From Bradyrhizobium genosp. L (GTDB taxonomy: Bacteria > Pseudomonadota > Alphaproteobacteria > Rhizobiales > Xanthobacteraceae), in assembly GCF_015624485.1 (NCBI RefSeq), contig NZ_CP061378.1, positions 4,340,001-4,404,000 on the forward strand: DNA of 64,000 nucleotides, in the 5' to 3' direction. The position numbers were made by a program, and so were the translations under genes. Below, one piece after another: positions 15,015 through 25,652 of the stretch. Numbering within the stretch: the first letter of the stretch is position 1; every line of letters starts with the position of its first letter. Under the pieces are notes generated by a model that was not told the DNA's origin, searched no databases, and was given only the letters and a program-made list of their open reading frames with translations.

Positions 15015-16157
<1,143 letters not shown>

Positions 16158-16173
16158 CGGTTTCCTCCCCTTC

Positions 16174-16293
16174 GTCATTGCGAGGAGCGCAGCGACGAAG
16201 CAATCCATCCATCCGAGCATGCGGCGGGATGGATTGCTTCGCGGAGCCTGTCATCGGGCGGCGCTACGCGCCGACCCGTTGGCTCGCAATGAC
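16174..16293. repeat. Palindromic repeat, GTCATTGCGAGGAGC family
   Basis: The end sequences GTCATTGCGAG and CTCGCAATGAC are inverted. Inner arms GAAGCAATCCATC and GATGGATTGCTTC are also inverted. A shorter copy lies at 24299-24380. Confidence 0.88.
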
Positions 16294-16424
16294 GGATGGA
16301 GGCGGCAGCGGTCAATCCGGCCGCGGAATCGCCGGAATATTTCGGTGAGTTAATGCTTGCCCCCGCTTGGCAGGCGAGCCCCCGGTTCCCATCTCCTGCG
16401 CGGGATATCAATCGGAGGTTGGTC

Positions 16425-16979
16425 ATGTCCTACGGCAATGACGGCGGCACGCGGAGCGGCGCGACCTGGCGCAATGACGGCGGCGTTCCCCCGCATGCGT
16501 TCGATCCGTACGCGCAGCCGGACCTGTTTCGCGGCGTGCTGACCCGACGCGTGTTCGCCTTCCTGATCGACCTCCTGGTGCTGTCGGTACCGGTGATCCT
16601 CGGCGTGATCTTCATCGCCATCTTCGGCGTGGTGACGCTCGGCCTCGGCTGGGCGCTGTTCTGGCTGGTGTCGCCGGCCTCGATCATCTGGGCGATCGTC
16701 TATTACGGCGCCTCGATCGGCGGCCCGCATTCGGCCACGCCAGGCATGCGCATGATGGATCTGGAACTGCGCACCTGGTACGGCGCCCCCGGCTACTTCG
16801 TGCTCGGCGCCGTCCATGCGGTATTATTCTGGGCGACGATCTCGTTCCTGTCGCCGCTGGTCCTGCTGGTCGGGCTGTTCAACGGCCGCCGCCGGCTGCT
16901 GCACGACGTCATCCTGGGAACCGTTGTTATCAACAGCTCGGTCCGCACCGAGATCACACCCGCGGCACGGGCCTATTAG
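16425..16979 (+). CDS. RDD family membrane protein
   Basis: A 184-residue inner-membrane protein of the RDD family, whose members are poorly characterised and some act in ion transport. A polar N-terminus precedes TRRVFAFLIDLLVLSVPVIL, the RDD-type Arg-Asp helix. Further hydrophobic segments run at about 75-105 and 125-160. ATG 16425 follows CGGAGG at seven bases. The frame is open to 16296 upstream, but that part is repeat sequence. Confidence 0.9.
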   Translation: MSYGNDGGTRSGATWRNDGGVPPHAFDPYAQPDLFRGVLTRRVFAFLIDLLVLSVPVILGVIFIAIFGVVTLGLGWALFWLVSPASIIWAIVYYGASIGGPHSATPGMRMMDLELRTWYGAPGYFVLGAVHAVLFWATISFLSPLVLLVGLFNGRRRLLHDVILGTVVINSSVRTEITPAARAY

Positions 16980-17064
16980 GTCCGCTTAAACCAATTGACC
17001 GTTAGCCTTCAGGGGGCGATGCTGAGTTGGCTGCCTGTATTGTTGTGGAGCCCGATTATCCGAC

Positions 17065-17841
17065 GTGACCCAGCACTCGCGTGACACCCCGCAGTTTTAT
17101 CTGACGGCGCCCTCGCCCTGCCCCTACCTGCCGGGCCGACACGAGCGCAAGGTGTTCACGCATCTGGTCGGCGAAAAGGCCGGCGATCTCAATGATCTGC
17201 TCACCCATGGCGGCTTCCGCCGCAGCCAGTCGATTGCCTACCGGCCGGCCTGCGACCAGTGCCGGGCCTGCGTCTCGGTCCGGGTGGTCGCCAACGAATT
17301 CCGCCCCTCCCGCAATTTCCGCAAGGTGCTGGCCCGCAACGCCGACATCATCGGCGAGCAGCGCAGCGCGGTGCCGACCTCGGAGCAGTATTCCGTCTTC
17401 CGCGCCTATCTCGACCGCCGCCACCGCAATGGCGGCATGGCCGACATGACGGTGCTGGACTATGCGATGATGGTCGAGGACAGCCATGTCGAGACCCGGA
17501 TCATCGAGTACCGCCGGCGCAATATCGACAGCGGCATCACCGGGCGCGGCGACGAGCTGCTGGCGGTGGCGCTGACCGACGTGCTCAGCGACGGGCTGTC
17601 GATGGTCTATTCGTTCTTCGAGCCGTCGCAGCAGCACCGCTCGCTCGGCACCTTCATGATTCTCGACCACATCGCCCGCGCCCGCCGGCAGGGCCTGCCT
17701 TACGTCTATCTCGGCTACTGGATCGAGGGCTCCAAGAAGATGGACTATAAGGGCCGCTTCCTGCCGCAGCAGCGCCTCGCCCCGAGCGGCTGGCTGCGCG
17801 TCGACGCCTCGGGCGAGGTCCTCGCGGAGCCGCAGGACTGA
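17065..17841 (+). CDS. bpt: Aspartate/glutamate leucyltransferase
   Basis: Transfers leucine from Leu-tRNA to N-terminal Asp or Glu, making substrates for ClpS/ClpAP degradation (N-degron pathway). The 258-residue protein has the N-terminal Cys cluster [16 protein letters not shown] (about 54-70). Its acyltransferase core includes [19 protein letters not shown] and [18 protein letters not shown]. It starts at GTG 17065 with only a weak distant GGAG. It is convergent with mntH, nine bases apart. Confidence 0.94.
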
Positions 17842-17850
17842 AGATCGAGA

Positions 17851-19230
17851 CTAGCTGCCGAACAAGGTATCGATCAACAGCTTCACGTTCAGGATCAGGA
17901 TCAGCCCGGCGACGATCCATGCCGCCGCGGCGACCGGCCACGAGATCGCAAACTTCCCCATCTTGCGCTTGTCGGACACGAACCGCACCAGCGGGATCAC
18001 CGCAAACGGCAGCTGCATCGACAGCACGACCTGACTGAACACCAAAAGCTGCGCGGTGCCGCTGTCGCCATACAGCGCGGCGACCACGACGACCGGAACG
18101 ATCGCGATGCCGCGGGTCAGCAGCCGCTGTGCCCAATCGGGCAGCCGCAGATCGAGGAAGCCCTGCATCACGATCTGGCCGGCCAGGGTCGCCGTCACAG
18201 TCGAATTGAGTCCGGACGCCAGCAGCGCCACGGCGAACAGCGTCGAGGCGATGCCGAGGCCGAGCAGCGGCGACAGCAATTCAAAGGCCTGGTCGATTTC
18301 GGCGACGTCGGAATGGCCGCTCTTGTGGAAGGTCGCAGCGGCCACGACCAGGATCGCGGCGTTGATGAACAGCGCCAGCATCAGCGCGATGGTGGAATCG
18401 GCCGTCGCCCATTTGATCGCATCGCGCCGTCCCTCCTCGGTGCGCGGATAGGCGCGGGTCTGCACGATCGAGGAGTGCAGATAGAGGTTATGCGGCATCA
18501 CGGTGGCGCCGATGATGCCGATCGCGATGTAGAGCATCTCAGGATTGGTGACGATCTCGCCCGTCGGCACGAAGCCGCCGATCACGGCCGCAACCGGCGG
18601 CGCGGCGGCGGCGATCTGCACCACGAAGCACACCGCGATCACGATCAAGAGCGCGATCACGAAGGCCTCGAGGAAGCGGAAGCCGCGGTTCATCAGGAGC
18701 AGCAGCAGGAACGCGTCGAGCGCCGCCAGCAGCGCGCCGCCGACCAGGGGAATGCCGAACAGCAGCTTCAGCGCGATCGCGGTGCCGATCACCTCCGCAA
18801 GGTCGCAGGCGATGATGGCGGCCTCGCAGGCCAGCCACAGCATCAGATTGACCGGGCGCGAATAGGTCGCCCGGCAGGCCTGCGCCAGATCGCGATCGGT
18901 GGCGATGCCGAGCCGCGCCGACAGCGCCTGCAGCAGGATCGCCATCAGATTCGAGAGCAGGATGACCGACAGCAGCGTGTAGCCGAACTTCGATCCACCG
19001 GCGATGTCGGTTGCCCAGTTGCCGGGGTCCATGTAGCCGACCGACACCAGATAGCCGGGACCGGCGAACGCCAGCAGCCGCCGCCACCACAACCCGCCGG
19101 TCGGCACGGCGACGGTCGAATTGACCTCCGGGAGGCTGCGCGCATGCCCGGCGTCGCCGCGCCAGCCCGAGGTGGCGGGGACGGCGGTAGAGAGCGAAAC
19201 GGGAGGCATTTCAGGCGTTCGGGCGTCCAT
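17851..19230 (-). CDS. mntH: Nramp-family Mn2+ transporter MntH
   Basis: Proton-coupled divalent metal importer, chiefly Mn2+. The 459-residue inner-membrane protein shows the metal-binding DPGN in helix 1 ([18 protein letters not shown]) and MPHN in helix 6 ([14 protein letters not shown]). About 11 membrane segments are present. A soluble N-terminus of about 45 residues precedes the first helix. ATG 19230 is used; a GTG at 19251 in frame is an alternative, and neither has a strong ribosome site. The upstream TGCAA inverted repeat suggests Mur-type manganese repression. Confidence 0.95.
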
Positions 19231-19260
19231 GCGACCAACATGGCTGATCACGGGCCTTAA

Positions 19261-19275
19261 TGCAACTCATTTGCA
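19261..19275 (-). promoter_or_regulatory. Candidate Mur (manganese) box upstream of mntH
   Basis: TGCAA-CTCAT-TTGCA, a perfect 5-5-5 inverted repeat, with a further ATGCA/TGCAT outer symmetry nearby. It lies about 30 bases upstream of the mntH start. TGCAA-type repeats are the recognised targets of alphaproteobacterial Mur at mntH/sitA promoters. The match to that motif is from memory. Confidence 0.6.
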
Positions 19276-19317
19276 ACTGCATCTAGCCTCACGAAGATGC
19301 TACCGCCGCCGGCATTG

Positions 19318-19340
19318 TAAAGCACTGAGGAAGTGCTTTA
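19318..19340. promoter_or_regulatory. Perfect 9-bp hairpin upstream of the TnpB-PspA gene
   Basis: TAAAGCACT (19318-19326) and AGTGCTTTA (19332-19340) enclose a five-base GAGGA loop, ending 10 bases before the ATG at 19351. It could be an operator or a leader hairpin hiding the GAGGA sequence. Confidence 0.6.
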
Positions 19341-19350
19341 GTCTCTAATC

Positions 19351-20481
19351 ATGATCAAGCTTCCCCTCGAGACGCCGACCGCAACCCTGCGCTACGCCCT
19401 CGCCCCCGACCAGGCGAGCACCGATGCGATCGAGGCGACCTTTGCGGCCTATGATCGGATGATGGCGATCCTTGCCGAGGTGGCTCCCGTCGGCGCCAAT
19501 CTGGTTTCGCTGCACGCCCAGGCCTATGAGCGGATCCGCAAGGAGACCGGCCTGCCGGCGCGGCTGGTGACGCTCGGCCTGCGCGACCGCGCCAGCTACG
19601 TCGCCGAGACGGCCATCCGCCGGATACCGCTCGACGACAAGTTGTTCGCGATCAAGGGTCCAACTTCACTGACCATTAGCACTGTCAGCGGACGCGTCTT
19701 GGTGCCGTTCGACGTGCCGGGATATGTCTCGGGCTGGGAAAGCCCCTTCCCGGCGCATTTGGTCTCGGATGGACGCGGCTACGAAATCCACATCGCCGTC
19801 AAATCCAAATCAGCTCAACCGGAGGAGAAGACCATGCTTCACGAAGGCATCCTTGCGCGCATGGGCCGGCTGCTTGCCGCCATCGCGAGCCAGACCATCG
19901 ACAACGCCGAGAACGCCAACAAGGTGGCGCTGGTCAAGCAGGCGATCCGCGAGATCGACGCCGGCGCCGACGAGGCGCGCTACGCGCTCGGCAAGTCGCG
20001 CGCCGAAGAATTCCGGCTCAAGCGGCGGCGTGAGGAACTGGATACCGAAACGGCTGCTCTCAACGACAAGATCCGTCTCGCACTTGCGGAAAATCGCGAC
20101 GACCTCGCGCGCGCCGGCGTCGCACGGCAAATTGATCTGGAATCGCAGATGATCGCGCTGGAACGCGCGATGGATTTCATCGAGCTCGAAATCGACGAGC
20201 AGACCAAGGCGTTGCAGGCCATGCTCGGCGCGCGGCGCGAGGCTGAGAATAGATTAACCGATCTCGAACAAAGCCTGCTCCGCGAGGCCAAGCATGAAAC
20301 CAGCCGGGCGCCAGCCGCGACCAATACATTGAGTGCCGATCGCGCCATGGCGGCGATCGCCCGGGTCACCGGCGTTCACGCTTCCAGCGTGCTCGGCGAC
20401 AAGGAGCTTGACGAACTCGACCGCCTGCACCGCGAAAAGGAAATCGCGGCGCGGCTTGAAAGGATCAAGTCACAGCAATGA
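19351..20481 (+). CDS. PspA/IM30 protein with N-terminal TnpB-like segment
   Basis: A 376-codon frame with two unrelated halves. Residues 1 to about 155 read like the N-terminal half of an IS605-type TnpB/OrfB: a helical part ending AYERIRKETGLPARLVTLGL, then DDKLFAIKGPTSLTISTVSG and GRVLVPFDVPGYV, ending GRGYEIHIAVKSK. The RuvC nuclease and zinc finger are absent. Residues 162 to about 320 are a long charged coiled coil of the PspA/IM30 class (ESCRT-III-like membrane-stress proteins), followed by a tail rich in Glu, Arg and Lys. An internal ATG at 19834 has an excellent ribosome site, so a short PspA may also or instead be made. The first ATG lacks one. The stop overlaps the next gene by ATGA, giving a pspA-yqiJ-yqiK-like operon. 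The TnpB likeness is by eye; PspA membership is firmer. Confidence 0.8.
   Translation: MIKLPLETPTATLRYALAPDQASTDAIEATFAAYDRMMAILAEVAPVGANLVSLHAQAYERIRKETGLPARLVTLGLRDRASYVAETAIRRIPLDDKLFAIKGPTSLTISTVSGRVLVPFDVPGYVSGWESPFPAHLVSDGRGYEIHIAVKSKSAQPEEKTMLHEGILARMGRLLAAIASQTIDNAENANKVALVKQAIREIDAGADEARYALGKSRAEEFRLKRRREELDTETAALNDKIRLALAENRDDLARAGVARQIDLESQMIALERAMDFIELEIDEQTKALQAMLGARREAENRLTDLEQSLLREAKHETSRAPAATNTLSADRAMAAIARVTGVHASSVLGDKELDELDRLHREKEIAARLERIKSQQ
19821..19836 (+). promoter_or_regulatory. Strong internal ribosome-binding site before ATG 19834
   Basis: GGAGGAG at 19821-19827 stands six bases before an in-frame ATG at 19834 (codon 162 of the long frame, product beginning MLHEGILARMGRLLAAIAS). 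This is exactly where PspA homology begins, so it either decides the true start or provides a second, PspA-only product. Confidence 0.75.
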
Positions 20482-21140
20482 GTGCAGTTGGCGACATTCT
20501 GCTCGCCCCCGACGTGCGGCCGTTCGCGGTCGCGGCTGCGATCATGGTGACGCTCGGCGGCATCGAGCTGCTGACCACCATGGTCGGACTTTCGATCAGC
20601 GAATTCATCGGCAAGGATTTCGCGGTCGAGGCCGAGAGCCACAACGCTCTCAGCGGCCTGTTTCTCTGGATCAACGCCGGGCGGCTTCCCCTCCTGATCC
20701 TGATCATCCTGATTCTCGGCATCTTCTCGATCGGAGGCTTTCTGTTGCAGGGCCTCGCGCATGCCACAGGCACCGCCCTTCCCGTCTCGATCGCTGCGGC
20801 GGTGACTGCTGCCGGCAGCATCCCCGTGATCAGGAAAGCCAGCCGCGGCCTCGCGCGCATCATTCCGCGCGACGAGAGCTACGCGGTCAGCGAGGACGAG
20901 TTCGTCGGCAAGGTCGCGACCGTCGCGGTCGGCCCGCTCGATCAGGGGCTACCCGGCCGCGTCCGTCTCAAGGATGTCTTCGGCAACTGGCACACCGTGT
21001 CGGCGCGTGCCGGCGCTGAGTCTGCGGCACTGCCGGTCGGCGCCAGCGTCTTGCTGGTCGATCGCGACGCCAAAAGCTTCATCGCGATTGCCGCTCCCGC
21101 CGATCTCATTGAACAACACCAATCTTCCAACAGGGCATAA
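20478..21140 (+). CDS. YqiJ/NfeD-like membrane protein with OB-fold
   Basis: A 220-residue protein. Hydrophobic segments lie at about 15-40, 65-90 and 95-115. A soluble C-terminal OB-like domain (about 135-205) contains FVGKVATVAVGPLDQGLPGR and VLLVDRD. It resembles E. coli YqiJ and the NfeD-type partners that sit beside flotillins. It overlaps the preceding gene by four bases and lies three bases before the flotillin gene, implying one transcript and a joint membrane complex. Confidence 0.85.
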   Translation: MSAVGDILLAPDVRPFAVAAAIMVTLGGIELLTTMVGLSISEFIGKDFAVEAESHNALSGLFLWINAGRLPLLILIILILGIFSIGGFLLQGLAHATGTALPVSIAAAVTAAGSIPVIRKASRGLARIIPRDESYAVSEDEFVGKVATVAVGPLDQGLPGRVRLKDVFGNWHTVSARAGAESAALPVGASVLLVDRDAKSFIAIAAPADLIEQHQSSNRA

Positions 21141-21143
21141 CAT

Positions 21144-22898
21144 ATGTGGGAACTTGCTGTACCCGTCGTCATTGGCGTCGTCGTCATCCTCGTCATCGGC
21201 CTGCTGTTCGCGAAACTCTACAAGCGCTCGACCCGCGACGAGGCCTATGTGCGCACCGGCCTCGGCGGCCAGAAGGTGGTGCTCGACGGCGGCTCGCTGG
21301 TGCTGCCGATCTTCCATTCCACCGCCGCAGTGAATTTGAAGACGCTGCGGCTCGAGGTCGCGCGCGGCGGCCCGGATTCGCTGATCACCAAGGACCGCAT
21401 GCGCGTCGACATCGGCGCCGAGTTCTATCTGCGGGTCAAACCCGACTCGTCCTCGATCGCGCTCGCGGCGCAGACGCTCGGCAACCGCACCAATGACGCG
21501 GCCGAATTGCGCGAGCTGGTCGAAGCCAAATTCGTCGACGGCCTGCGTTCGGTCGCAGCCACCATGAACCTCGAGGAGCTGCAGGAGCAGCGCGCGACCT
21601 TCGTCAAGGCGGTGCAGGACGCGGTCGGCGCCGACATCCAGAACAACGGCCTCGAGCTGGAATCGGTGTCGCTGACCAGGCTCGACCAGAGCGACATCAA
21701 GCACTTCAACCCGAGCAACTTCTTCGACGCCCACGGTCTCACCACCCTGACCAAGATCACCAAGGAGCGTGAGCAGGAGCGCAACCAGATCGTCCGCACC
21801 ACCGAGGTCAACATCGCGCAGCAGGACCTGGTGGCGCGGCAGACCACGTTGACGATCGAGACCACCAAGCGCGACGCGGAGCTTGCCCAGCAGCGCGACA
21901 TCGCCAACAAGACCGCCGCGATGCGCGCGCAGACCGCGCAGGTCGAGCAGACCGCGTTGCAGAACGAGGCCGAATACCGCATCCAGCAGGAACTCGCGGT
22001 CGCCAACAAGCAGACCGAGGCCAACCAGGCCCGCGACACCCGCAAGATCGAGGCCGATCTCGCGGTGAAACGGCGCAATACCGAAATGGAGCGCGACCTT
22101 CAGATCGTGGCGCAGGAAAGCGCGATCACGGTCGCCAACAAGAGCAAGGAGCAGTCCGAGGCGCAGACCGTCGCCGAGACCGCACGCGCGCTGGCGATCG
22201 CAGCCGAGGAAAAGGTCACAACCGCCAAGGCCACCGAAATTGCCGAGCGCGACAAGATCATCAACGTGATCGCGGCGCGCAAGGCTGCCGAAACCAACGC
22301 GATGCCGATCACCGTGATGGCGGAAGCCGAGAAGCAGGCTGCCGCCAACAAGGCCGAGGCCACCAACGTGCTTGCGAAGGCAGATGCCAATGCCGCAACC
22401 ACCCGCGCTGCCGGCGTCAAGGCGCTCGGCCAGGCCGAGGCCGAAGTCGCGACGTTGAAGGCCGAAGCGCGCAACAAGCTCAGCCCCTCGATGATCGATT
22501 ACGATCTGAACCTCGCGCGCATCAACATCATCCCGAACGCGCTGGCCGAAGCGGTGAAGCCGATCGAGAAGATCTCCGACATCCGGATCTTCGACACCGG
22601 TAGCCTGCTCGGCCGCGGCAGCGGCAACGGCCATGCCCAAGGCAATGGTAGCGGCAACGGCGGTCTTGGGCTCGGCGACGGCCTCGCTGCGCAGCTGCTG
22701 TCGGTCTCGGCGTTCAAGCCGATGATCGACAAGATCCTCTCCGAAGCCGGCTTCCCCGCCGGACCGGACGCGCTCACCAGCCTGACCAGCGCGCTCGCAC
22801 AGCGCAAGGCCGAGGCTGCCGCAAGCGACGGAAGCCAGCCCACGGCACTCGTTGGCACGATCACGGGCCAGCTTGCGAGCAGCCCCAATACGCAGTGA
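21144..22898 (+). CDS. Flotillin-like SPFH protein (YqiK type)
   Basis: A 584-residue membrane scaffold protein. It has an N-terminal membrane helix (MWELAVPVVIGVVVILVIGL), an SPFH/band-7 domain (about 45-210), and a very long Ala/Glu/Lys/Thr-rich coiled coil (about 215-450). A Gly/Asn/Ser linker (about 490-515) and a short C-terminal domain follow. Family members organise membrane microdomains and support envelope-stress responses. This is the last gene of the PspA-OB-flotillin operon and is followed by a terminator. Confidence 0.92.
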   Translation: MWELAVPVVIGVVVILVIGLLFAKLYKRSTRDEAYVRTGLGGQKVVLDGGSLVLPIFHSTAAVNLKTLRLEVARGGPDSLITKDRMRVDIGAEFYLRVKPDSSSIALAAQTLGNRTNDAAELRELVEAKFVDGLRSVAATMNLEELQEQRATFVKAVQDAVGADIQNNGLELESVSLTRLDQSDIKHFNPSNFFDAHGLTTLTKITKEREQERNQIVRTTEVNIAQQDLVARQTTLTIETTKRDAELAQQRDIANKTAAMRAQTAQVEQTALQNEAEYRIQQELAVANKQTEANQARDTRKIEADLAVKRRNTEMERDLQIVAQESAITVANKSKEQSEAQTVAETARALAIAAEEKVTTAKATEIAERDKIINVIAARKAAETNAMPITVMAEAEKQAAANKAEATNVLAKADANAATTRAAGVKALGQAEAEVATLKAEARNKLSPSMIDYDLNLARINIIPNALAEAVKPIEKISDIRIFDTGSLLGRGSGNGHAQGNGSGNGGLGLGDGLAAQLLSVSAFKPMIDKILSEAGFPAGPDALTSLTSALAQRKAEAAASDGSQPTALVGTITGQLASSPNTQ

Positions 22899-22930
22899 CG
22901 ACCTGATCAGAGATCAGGAACAACAACGCA

Positions 22931-22960
22931 AAGGCCCGCCGAATTCCCGGTGGGCCTTTT
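22931..22960 (+). terminator. Terminator after the flotillin operon
   Basis: AAGGCCCGCC (22931-22940) pairs with GGTGGGCCTT (22949-22958), and the T-run continues to 22960. It lies 33 bases after the flotillin stop. Confidence 0.9.
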
Positions 22961-23045
22961 GCTTGGCGTTGTCGGGAAACGGGTGGGATCGGACGTCTTC
23001 CAACCACACACTATGGCCAGATCGAAATTCTTACAGGATTCTGCC

Positions 23046-24287
23046 ATGTCGTCCGATACACCTCGGCTGCCCGCAACCTTCAACCGCCTGGCCTGGTCCA
23101 ACCTCGCCGCGCAATCCGCCGAGCAGATCGCGCTCGCAGCGGCTCCGATCGTCGCCGTGCTGCTGCTCGGGGTCGGCGAAGGCCAGACCGGCCTGCTGCA
23201 GACCGCGCTGACGCTGCCCTTCATCCTGTTCGCGATTCCGGCAGGGCTGCTCGCCGACCGCGTGTCGCGGCGCTGGGTGATGGCCGGCGCGGAGGCGCTG
23301 CGCGCGGCGGCGCTGGTCGCGATCCTGCTCTTGCTCTGGCTCGGTGCGATGACGCTGCCGCTGCTCGCGCTGCTCGGCTTCATCGCAGTCTGCGGCACGG
23401 TGGCATACAGCGTCGCCGCGCCGGCGCTGGTGCCGTCGCTGGTCACCGCCCAGCAATTGCCGGCGGCGAATGCGCGCATCGAGCTCGCGCGCACCATCGC
23501 CTTCGCCAGCGGCCCGGCGCTCGGCGGCGTGTTGGTCGGCTGGGTCGGCGCGGCCCCTGCCTTCGGCTTCGCCGCGGCGCTGTCGGCGATCGCGGTCGTG
23601 CTGCTGGCCGGCATCTATGAGCCGGCGCGTCCGTCGGTGCCGCAGCGCCATCCGCTGCAGGACATCAAGGAAGGCGCCGCCTTCGTGTTCCATCACGCGC
23701 TGCTGCGGCCGGTGTTCGTCACCCAGTTCATCTTCAACACCGCATCGTTCCTGGTGCTCGCCGTGTTCGTACCCTATGCGGTGCGTCATCTCGGGCTCAG
23801 TGCCACCGGCGTCGGCACCACCCTCGCAATGTATGGCGTCGGCATGGTGGTCGGTGCGCTGTTCGCGACCCGGGTGATGAAGCGGCTGGCATTCGGCACC
23901 GTGATCGGGCTCGGCCCGGTGACCGGCTTCGTTGCGGCGGTCGTGATGGCGCTGACCACCTGGATTCCGTCGCCGCTGCTGGCGGGCCTGAGCTACTTCC
24001 TGCTCGGCGTCGGCCCGATCCTGTGGGTGATCTCGACCACCACGCTGCGGCAGTCGGTGACCCCACCCTCGCTGCTCGGCCGGGTCTCGGCGATCAACAT
24101 CATGAGCTACGGCGCCCGTCCGCTCGGCTCCGCGCTCGGCGCCGTCGTCGGCGGCCTCTACGGCGCAGAGACCTGCCTCTACCTCGCGGCCGCGATCTTC
24201 GCAGCCCAGGCGCTGGTGATCCTGATGTCGCCCGCGGTCTCGCTGACGCGGCAGCCCGACATGGTCGGCGAGCCGGCGCGGTGCTAA
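23046..24287 (+). CDS. MFS transporter (EntS/MFS_3-like)
   Basis: A 413-residue, 12-helix inner-membrane major-facilitator protein. The loop between helices 2 and 3 has the signature GLLADRVSRRWVM. A second-half repeat follows after the central loop IYEPARPSVPQRHPLQDIKE. The layout matches multidrug or siderophore exporters such as EntS; the substrate is not predictable. ATG 23046 is used, with a weak AGGA upstream. The frame is open into the preceding terminator, which cannot be coding. Confidence 0.9.
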   Translation: MSSDTPRLPATFNRLAWSNLAAQSAEQIALAAAPIVAVLLLGVGEGQTGLLQTALTLPFILFAIPAGLLADRVSRRWVMAGAEALRAAALVAILLLLWLGAMTLPLLALLGFIAVCGTVAYSVAAPALVPSLVTAQQLPAANARIELARTIAFASGPALGGVLVGWVGAAPAFGFAAALSAIAVVLLAGIYEPARPSVPQRHPLQDIKEGAAFVFHHALLRPVFVTQFIFNTASFLVLAVFVPYAVRHLGLSATGVGTTLAMYGVGMVVGALFATRVMKRLAFGTVIGLGPVTGFVAAVVMALTTWIPSPLLAGLSYFLLGVGPILWVISTTTLRQSVTPPSLLGRVSAINIMSYGARPLGSALGAVVGGLYGAETCLYLAAAIFAAQALVILMSPAVSLTRQPDMVGEPARC

Positions 24288-24298
24288 CCACACCCGCC

Positions 24299-24380
24299 GT
24301 CATTGCGAGCGAAGCGAAGCAATCCATTCCTTCGCAAGCGGGGAAATGGATTGCTTCGTCGCTTCGCTCCTCGCAATGAC
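24299..24380. repeat. Palindromic repeat, GTCATTGCGAG family
   Basis: Ends GTCATTGCGAGCGAAGCGAAG and CTTCGCTCCTCGCAATGAC are inverted, as are AAGCAATCCATT and AATGGATTGCTT. It fills the gap between the convergent MFS and cyclase genes. Confidence 0.9.
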
Positions 24381-24392
24381 AGTAGAGAAACC

Positions 24393-25652
24393 TCAGCTCG
24401 CCAGATACCGCTCATACTTGCCGCCGACCACCTCGTCGGCGGCGACTGCCGGATCCAACGTATACAAATCCTGCGCGTGGCTGATACCGCGCAGCACGAA
24501 GCGGCCGGTCGAGACCAGGTAGTTGCGCCCCATCGCATCGAGGCCGGTGCGGAAAGCGGTAGAGGTCAGCAGCTCGCGGCTGACCGATGCGCACATCGAG
24601 GCGATCCTGGAGACCTCGTTGACGGCGGGACCGACCACCGTGAAATCGAGCCGGTCCTCGCTGCCGATATTGCCGTAAAAGACCTCGCCGACATGGAGAC
24701 CGACATAGGCCGACGTGGTCGGCCGCTCCTCGTTCTCGCGGCGATCGTTCAGGACACGAATGTTGTGCCTGAACGTGTGCTCGGCGCGCAGGGCCGCACG
24801 CTTGGCAACGGCCATGTTCTCGCTGGTGAACATCGCCAGCACGCCATCGCCGATCAGTTTCAGCACCTCGCCGCCGGCATCGTGGACGGCATCGATGGAG
24901 GCCTGCGCATAGTCGTTGAGGAACGGGATGATCTCGTCCGGCCCGATGCGCTCGCTGATCGCGGTCGAACCGCGGACGTCGGAGTACCACAGCACGGCCT
25001 TGATCTTCTCGGTGACGCCGCGCGTCATGCGTCCGCGCAACACCTGCTCGGCCGTGTCGCGGCCGAGATAAACCCGTCCCAGCGTCCGGGCGATCTCGGC
25101 CTGCGCGGCGGATTTGATCGCAAGCCCGAGCACCGGCACCAGGTCACGCAGCGCCGCCAGCCCCTGCTCGCCAAACCCATCGTCGCGCCGGGTCGTCCAG
25201 TAGGAATAAACGCAGTCCATCAGCCCGATCGTCCCGGCTTCGCCGAAATGGTGCACATGGGCCACGAGATGCTTGTGACCGCGATCGACGAGATCGCCGG
25301 TGAACTTGAATCTGCGGGAGTCCTCTTCTTCCAGCGCCAGCGGCAATTCGTGATGGCCACTTTCGAGCATGTGATAGAAGATCGACTGCCGCCAGGCATC
25401 CGCGGCTTCGCCTTCATTGGTCGGGCCATATTCGAACGCGACGCTTTCGTTGGTCTCGGCGTCGTTCCAGCGAAAGCCGCGGCCCTCGAAAATCGGATGC
25501 AGCGTATCGATGAACACCATCGCGCGCGCCACATCGAGCCCCTCGGCGCGACAGCGCTCGCAGAAGCCACGCAGCAGGTCGTTTTCAGGCAGGCCGGTCA
25601 GGCCCTGGCGGACCAGCCAATTCATCAGGCGCAGACGGGGGGTCAGTTCCAT
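24393..25652 (-). CDS. Class III adenylate/guanylate cyclase
   Basis: A 419-residue soluble protein. The N-terminal 200 residues form an uncharacterised sensory region common to rhizobial cyclases. The catalytic domain (about 215-400) carries the metal aspartates in LWYSDVRGST (about D225) and LKLIGDGVLAMF (about D269), with Lys before GD as in adenylate cyclases. It also has the transition-state pair in VGPAVNEVSRI. The complete site predicts an active cAMP-producing enzyme; the input signal is unknown. Confidence 0.9.
   Translation of the reverse strand: MELTPRLRLMNWLVRQGLTGLPENDLLRGFCERCRAEGLDVARAMVFIDTLHPIFEGRGFRWNDAETNESVAFEYGPTNEGEAADAWRQSIFYHMLESGHHELPLALEEEDSRRFKFTGDLVDRGHKHLVAHVHHFGEAGTIGLMDCVYSYWTTRRDDGFGEQGLAALRDLVPVLGLAIKSAAQAEIARTLGRVYLGRDTAEQVLRGRMTRGVTEKIKAVLWYSDVRGSTAISERIGPDEIIPFLNDYAQASIDAVHDAGGEVLKLIGDGVLAMFTSENMAVAKRAALRAEHTFRHNIRVLNDRRENEERPTTSAYVGLHVGEVFYGNIGSEDRLDFTVVGPAVNEVSRIASMCASVSRELLTSTAFRTGLDAMGRNYLVSTGRFVLRGISHAQDLYTLDPAVAADEVVGGKYERYLAS

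Follow-up and report, generated by a model that had tools for sequence, protein, structure and literature searches.

The gene at positions 19351..20481 (forward strand) of the window, by which we mean the whole 64,000-nucleotide stretch of Bradyrhizobium genosp. L DNA that was analysed, encodes a 376-residue protein in which a TnpB-derived REC lobe is joined to PspA/IM30, and this fusion is real and in frame. It is the first gene of an operon with a YqiJ-like membrane protein and a flotillin, and its TnpB-derived part may have become a DNA-binding regulator of that operon.

The 376 codons of this frame run without a stop, and their translation contains the motifs from which the original prediction had read a single frame passing from a TnpB-like N-terminal segment into PspA; PspA_IM30 (PF04012) indeed covers residues 166-300, with an E-value of about 7e-11 to 8e-11 and 42.5 bits against a cut-off of 33.9. 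In each of the 97 loci that differ in their upstream sequence, a single open frame covers the two parts (the shortest protein has 368 residues), and the stop between the two parts that would have spoken against the prediction occurs in none of them. A search with residues 1-165 returned 462 relatives at E<=1e-3; the best 120 of these 462 are 83-92% identical and mostly about 376 residues long with PF04012, and those among them that are named to species are Bradyrhizobium. Nine sequences were compared with the N-terminal part; its dN/dS is 0.08-0.12 for the three closest and 0.28-0.61 for the other, more distant six, whose values are rough given the dS of 0.65-1.37 in this comparison. These ratios indicate purifying selection on the N-terminal part. 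That the fusion might be an artefact of assembly or frame was considered and rejected, as the relatives, the open frames in 97 of 97 loci and the dN/dS values all speak against it. The fusion is present once in the window's genome.

Residues 11-150 are, with near certainty, a TnpB/Cas12 REC lobe (WED plus REC). When compared by hhalign with a TnpB alignment, the domain reached a probability of 98.8 (E 6e-17), to be set against 0.34 for the reversed TnpB alignment and at most 2.13 for 20 column-shuffled ones, and judged by these decoys the order of its motifs agrees with TnpB beyond chance. Given that this first TnpB alignment had been built from matches of the query itself, the comparison was redone minus the five query-chosen rows and gave a probability of 97.5 (E 6e-12), with the remaining 15 rows still chosen by likeness to a TnpB found by the domain profile. 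The AlphaFold2 model of the domain (pLDDT 84.5) leads to the same family, since all 50 structural matches listed by the fold search are TnpB, Cas12, TranC or Fanzor, and the model aligns with residues 2-183 of ISDra2 TnpB, which make up its REC lobe, and with nothing of the nuclease lobe; Foldseek alone returned nothing at E<=0.001 (best match E 5e-3, probability 1.00). The TnpB origin first proposed for residues 1-160 was thus recovered both by alignment and by fold.

In Pfam, residues 1-160 have no match at E<=1, and in NCBIfam none that comes near the cut-off; Pfam gave nothing convincing on 32 members of the domain (best E 0.012), and the domain profile, run against the sequences of solved structures, returned no TnpB (best E-values 0.19 and 0.32, both AAA ATPases). 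ISDra2 TnpB itself was reached only by fold, and nine ISDra2-like TnpBs were not reached by sequence (hhalign probability 2.5). Mariprofundus ferrinatatus has a TnpB (P0236) of a kind that is closer by sequence than ISDra2. The intact TnpB found by the domain profile is the 374-residue protein of an IS200/IS605-like pair in this species (L117:775-2316), whose 137-residue TnpA-like partner takes its name from sequence only. Among eight sub-threshold plasmid matches, four are not annotated as TnpB, including the best by E-value (Thermobacillus, 0.1).

A WED domain with the REC helices inserted after its first strand is what residues 11-150 contain. WED strand 1 (residues 11-17, positions 19381..19401, forward strand) was assigned by DSSP on the AlphaFold2 model, where residues 11-20 have a mean pLDDT of 93; it is followed, as in TnpB, by the REC bundle of three helices (residues 21-81, 19411..19593, forward) and then, based on the model and the fold search, by the remaining WED strands (residues 90-150, 19618..19800, forward). 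The RuvC nuclease and the zinc finger are missing, as the original prediction stated: no RuvC/OrfB or zinc-ribbon (PF07282) model matches the 376-residue protein, in which the PspA part comes straight after the domain, and the genome of the window yields none to PF01385 at E<=0.001. According to the portion of the structural report on ISDra2 TnpB that we drew on, WED comprises residues 1-12 and 117-176 and REC residues 13-116, the cleft between them holds the TAM duplex (contacted by Y52, S56, K76, F77, Q80, T123 and N124), and the RNA scaffold lies on WED and RuvC (PMC10097598). The aligned range of ISDra2 (2-183) takes in all seven TAM-contact residues reported there and none of RuvC/TNB, a comparison made at the level of the range.

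The PspA part (19834..20481, forward strand, 215 residues, PF04012) seems to have a start of its own, with an ATG at 19834 (codon 162) preceded by the Shine-Dalgarno sequence GGAGGAG at 19821..19827 (forward). In 97 of 97 distinct loci, a Met at the junction with PspA has a Shine-Dalgarno tetramer before it, any Met at most 22 residues before the PspA motif being accepted in this count; the same holds for 16 of the 491 other Met codons of these frames. The residues encoded at this site vary by clade (PEEKT, MEEN, EEENA, QKETT, KKEAS, EGEHT), and in one locus (L098) the site sits in another codon phase; that it is kept while the residues change, together with this phase shift, points to selection acting on the RNA. 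A synonymous-codon test of the site was not significant alone (p about 0.4-0.5 in most of 50 rows), because Glu and Lys codons force a purine run; the case for the site is built on its retention, the phase shift and the contrast with the other Met codons. PspA alone is probably also made from this internal start.

Downstream of the fusion, on the same strand, the operon continues with a YqiJ-like OB-fold membrane protein (20478..21140; PF21001 E 7e-19, PF07290 E 2e-10), whose ATG overlaps the fusion stop by 4 nt (ATGA), and with a YqiK-like flotillin (21144..22898; PF15975 E 6e-25, PF01145 E 8e-18), which begins 3 nt after yqiJ. The same order on one strand is found in the window and in five annotated plasmid loci, among which the neighbours outside the operon vary and no conserved neighbouring regulator gene was seen. 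YqiJ occurs in 16 of 199 genomes of the order, namely all 11 with the fusion and five without it; the predicted conservation of the fusion beside yqiJ/yqiK-like genes agrees with these counts and with the plasmid loci. The REC lobe is the sole obvious nucleic-acid-related domain of the operon. In the window (15093-25652), Pfam identifies ALAD (hemB), RDD, arginine-tRNA-protein transferase and Nramp (divergent from the operon) before it, and MFS and then a guanylate/adenylate cyclase domain after it; none of these neighbours accompanies the operon in the annotations of the five plasmid loci. PADLOC found nothing.

The fusion was found in Bradyrhizobium, Rhizobium, Agrobacterium, Shinella, Bosea and a Xanthobacteraceae MAG, and its spread is patchy (11 of 199 order, 9 of 198 family and 6 of 385 class genomes). 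One further candidate, L012 (37% over 92 residues, E 2e-4), was rejected as a chance match beside an unrelated regulator frame, which leaves the order count at 11, not 12. In a tree of 31 PspA parts, the rows of which were picked by hand, the 23 fused and eight plain rows are split by one branch with 100/100 support, a topology compatible with a single fusion event. The clade of the window lies with Rhizobium copies and not with the other Bradyrhizobium type, at a weak support of 82/68, and transfer of the operon between genera is possible on this pattern. The two Bradyrhizobium types of fusion (window-like and japonicum-like) are about 55-59% identical N-terminally and differ in the loops of the inverted repeat described below. 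A record titled Frankia sp. RB7 (L075, JAUEPE010000003.1) carries a fusion locus of the Bradyrhizobium japonicum type by inverted repeat and start region, and may be misnamed or contaminated.

A different first gene is found in some of the relatives that have a plain pspA. Five order loci have YqiJ without the TnpB part, and in three of them (L191, L192, L195) a protein of about 175 residues with a ribbon-helix-helix-like start precedes pspA; in L194 no such gene of at least 150 residues was seen before pspA, and L193 stops inside yqiJ. Searched by itself, this protein lies upstream of pspA in four of four matches (one plasmid record and 3 of 299 phylum genomes), with the gene of L199 about 0.3 kb upstream. 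The family comprises L191:2845-3399, L192:2915-3451, L195:2861-3385, L196:5031-5564, L197:1495-2016, L198:1005-1520 and L199:1402-1950, and TGCATACATT-like repeats precede some of its genes. The two members scanned (L191, L192) have no Pfam or NCBIfam match above cut-off, and a fold search with a model of the protein (pLDDT 72.5) gave no ribbon-helix-helix fold; the ribbon-helix-helix reading is a sequence intuition. If this protein were a DNA-binding autoregulator, the TnpB lobe would have replaced it.

Before the start codon of the fusion lies an inverted repeat, TAAAGCACT-GAGGA-AGTGCTTTA (19318..19340), which we regard as a putative operator over a putative promoter; this dyad and the internal PspA start had both been missed by the original prediction. 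Apart from a block before the ATG, AAAGCAC-n7-GTGCTTTA, which TTGw often precedes, the upstream regions of the fusion loci are dissimilar. Of 110 such loci (some of which were fetched twice), 107 have the dyad as their best 8-5-8 inverted repeat ahead of the start codon, at a distance of 10-14 nt; as to the exceptions, L010 and L083 have imperfect copies by eye and L098 has no recognisable dyad. Sixty-six of the best repeats in these 110 loci are perfect and 37 have one mismatch, compared with two and 37, respectively, in 3000 base-shuffled regions. Additionally, the two arms change together, as in L011 (AAAACACC/GGTGTTTT), L007 (AAAGGAC/GTCCTTT) and L040 (AAAGTACT/AGTACTTT).

The exact pattern AAAGCACn7GTGCTTT occurs as a single copy in the 7.4-Mb genome, at the fusion operon, with no site at one mismatch and six further sites at two; the reversed control pattern has four sites in all in the same genome, one of them exact. 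Among 38 chosen genomes, the exact dyad was found in 8 of 19 with the fusion, each time single and beside the operon, and in none of the 19 without it, which is the chance expectation; 11 of the 19 fusion genomes lack the exact dyad because the arms vary. The single copy is less telling than it looks, so specific a pattern being rare anyway and the reversed control having one exact site as well. A trans-acting regulator with the dyad as its single target is possible. No dyad was found in the five loci without the domain, one of which (L193) ends inside yqiJ, while another (L192) offers no more than about 50 bases ahead of the first gene.

A putative -35 element, TTGTAA (19315..19320, forward), and a putative -10 element, TAGTCT (19339..19344, forward), 6 nt before the ATG, overlap the dyad at its two ends. 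TTGwAA is present in 58 of 97 distinct upstream regions, and the complete pattern TTGwAA-N16..18-TAnnnT in 37 of 97 (shuffled mean 0.065, maximum 1), with 6 nt between the end of the -10 element and the ATG in 31 of these 37. The main ATG is preceded by a Shine-Dalgarno-like tetramer in 1 of 97 loci, and a generic sigma-70 scan gave no site in 19200-23000 of the window. As the promoter pattern ends mostly 6 nt from the ATG and the main start lacks a Shine-Dalgarno sequence in 96 of 97 loci, the mRNA is likely leaderless, and we infer an operator placed over the core promoter.

We propose, with somewhat less than even confidence, that the guide-free TnpB-derived REC lobe autorepresses the operon through the dyad and that this repression is relieved when PspA goes to the membrane; we infer every binding step in this scheme. 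The lobe, a TAM reader of double-stranded DNA in TnpB, would now act as a DNA-binding domain without guide RNA, and the PspA oligomer would present it in two or more copies. Bound to the dyad (half-site AAAGCAC) over the promoter, these lobes would repress their own operon, and upon membrane damage PspA would be drawn to the membrane, taking the fusion off the promoter and allowing the fusion, PspA, YqiJ and flotillin to be made. The internal start would add PspA without the DNA-binding part, so that some subunits only would carry the REC lobe. In enterobacteria, PspA controls a separate activator, PspF, by holding it; the arrangement proposed here would be the one-piece counterpart. In favour of the scheme are the retained TAM-contacting range, the single exact dyad with its paired arm changes, the other type of first gene in relatives, the internal start in 97 of 97 loci and the well-supported branch of fused PspAs; the lost charge, the variable dyad arms and the promoter pattern in no more than 37 of 97 regions weigh against it.

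It is possible, if on the whole rather improbable, that the REC lobe is a protein- or lipid-contact module only, a stable OB-like fold docking PspA to YqiJ, flotillin or the membrane, and that an unrelated regulator encoded elsewhere reads the dyad. The charge of the domain fits such a role, being near neutral or negative in most members: 27 domains carry net charges between -6 and +4, compared with 20 N-terminal stretches of TnpB in which the values are +7 to +16 for 18 and -9 and -13 for the two haloarchaeal ones, negative charge being expected of the proteins of halophiles. The loss of the usual positive charge of TnpB would weaken a role with nucleic acids of any kind, DNA among them. Wherever checked, the three genes of the operon occur together, and a separate regulator is compatible with the dyad counts, since the absence of the dyad from non-fusion genomes equals the chance expectation. 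Nevertheless, that regulator would need the dyad as its one clear target, and the five listed neighbourhoods hold no conserved gene for it.

Much less probable, in our judgement, is that the domain has kept the ability to bind a small RNA, guide-like or other, as the original prediction supposed, with an RNA signal or RNA-guided targeting controlling PspA or flotillin in the manner of TldR. The WED strands of ISDra2 TnpB do touch part of the RNA scaffold in the section of the report used here (PMC10097598), and TldRs, as the consulted part of their description has it, show that TnpB can turn into an RNA-guided repressor (PMC13418256). Against this, an RNA-guided role is unlikely because the RNA scaffold surface needs the lost RuvC, its main component, and because the positive charge is gone; with the TAM-gripping half kept, DNA contact is the natural reading. 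The Rfam scan of the window gives a tRNA only, in a database that may not cover every omega RNA, and the room between open reading frames is about 99 bp before the fusion gene and 51 bp after the flotillin gene, so that the operon leaves little intergenic space for a guide RNA not overlapping genes. The supposed RNA-holding function was consequently not sustained.

We consider it equally doubtful that the dyad acts on translation as an RNA hairpin within a 5' leader (via the REC lobe or alone): its seven- to nine-base arms with compensating changes and its position 10-14 nt from the start codon would suit one, but transcription would begin at the ATG and leave the dyad untranscribed if the promoter hexamers are right, and the main start lacks a Shine-Dalgarno tetramer in 96 of 97 loci, as expected of a leaderless mRNA.

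Compared with the TnpBs of IS200/IS605 elements (e.g. ISDra2), the fusion lacks RuvC and zinc finger, has no TnpA in its operon, has lost the charge and carries PspA. It resembles TldRs, some of which are also shortened at the C-terminus, in being TnpB-derived and domesticated beside non-transposon genes, and TldRs act on transcription. Their RuvC is inactivated by mutation and they use a guide RNA, as described in the part of the source drawn on (PMC13418256), whereas the RuvC of the fusion is wholly absent and not mutated, and Rfam found no guide RNA in the window. For PspA, the consulted part of a survey reports little variation of architecture in more than 98% of about 2,500 homologues and gives as exceptions tandem PspA_IM30 repeats and fusions including NlpC/P60 and PspAA (PMC11237479); the fusion is like PspA/IM30 in having PF04012 above cut-off, and a TnpB lobe is not among the exceptions named in that part. 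The same survey, again in the part used, describes CesT/Tir-PspA operons with flotillin and YqiJ, and an RHH factor that ends some PspA operons (PMC11237479). The present operon likewise combines PspA with YqiJ and a band-7/flotillin protein, and differs from the CesT/Tir-PspA operons described there in what occupies the slot before PspA: the TnpB REC lobe in the fusion, and the RHH-like protein of about 175 residues in some relatives lacking that lobe. Literature searches, mostly judged by title, found no account of a TnpB-PspA fusion.

More tentatively than the autorepression itself, we suggest that TnpB was here cut back to its TAM-reading REC lobe, which could have become a guide-free, sequence-specific DNA-binding domain within an ESCRT-III-like PspA, giving a protein that would sense the membrane and switch the promoter from which it is expressed, while the internal start would yield a second isoform free of the DNA-binding part. 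The known domestications of TnpB have led to nucleases (Cas12, Fanzor) and to an RNA-guided repressor (TldR); if true, the present case would be a third route, by which an RNA-guided enzyme ends as a DNA-binding domain of the ordinary kind. PspA, whose known regulators are, to our knowledge, separate proteins, would moreover have gained a built-in one, and the coupling of membrane state to gene expression by PspA would become testable with one polypeptide and one predicted operator.
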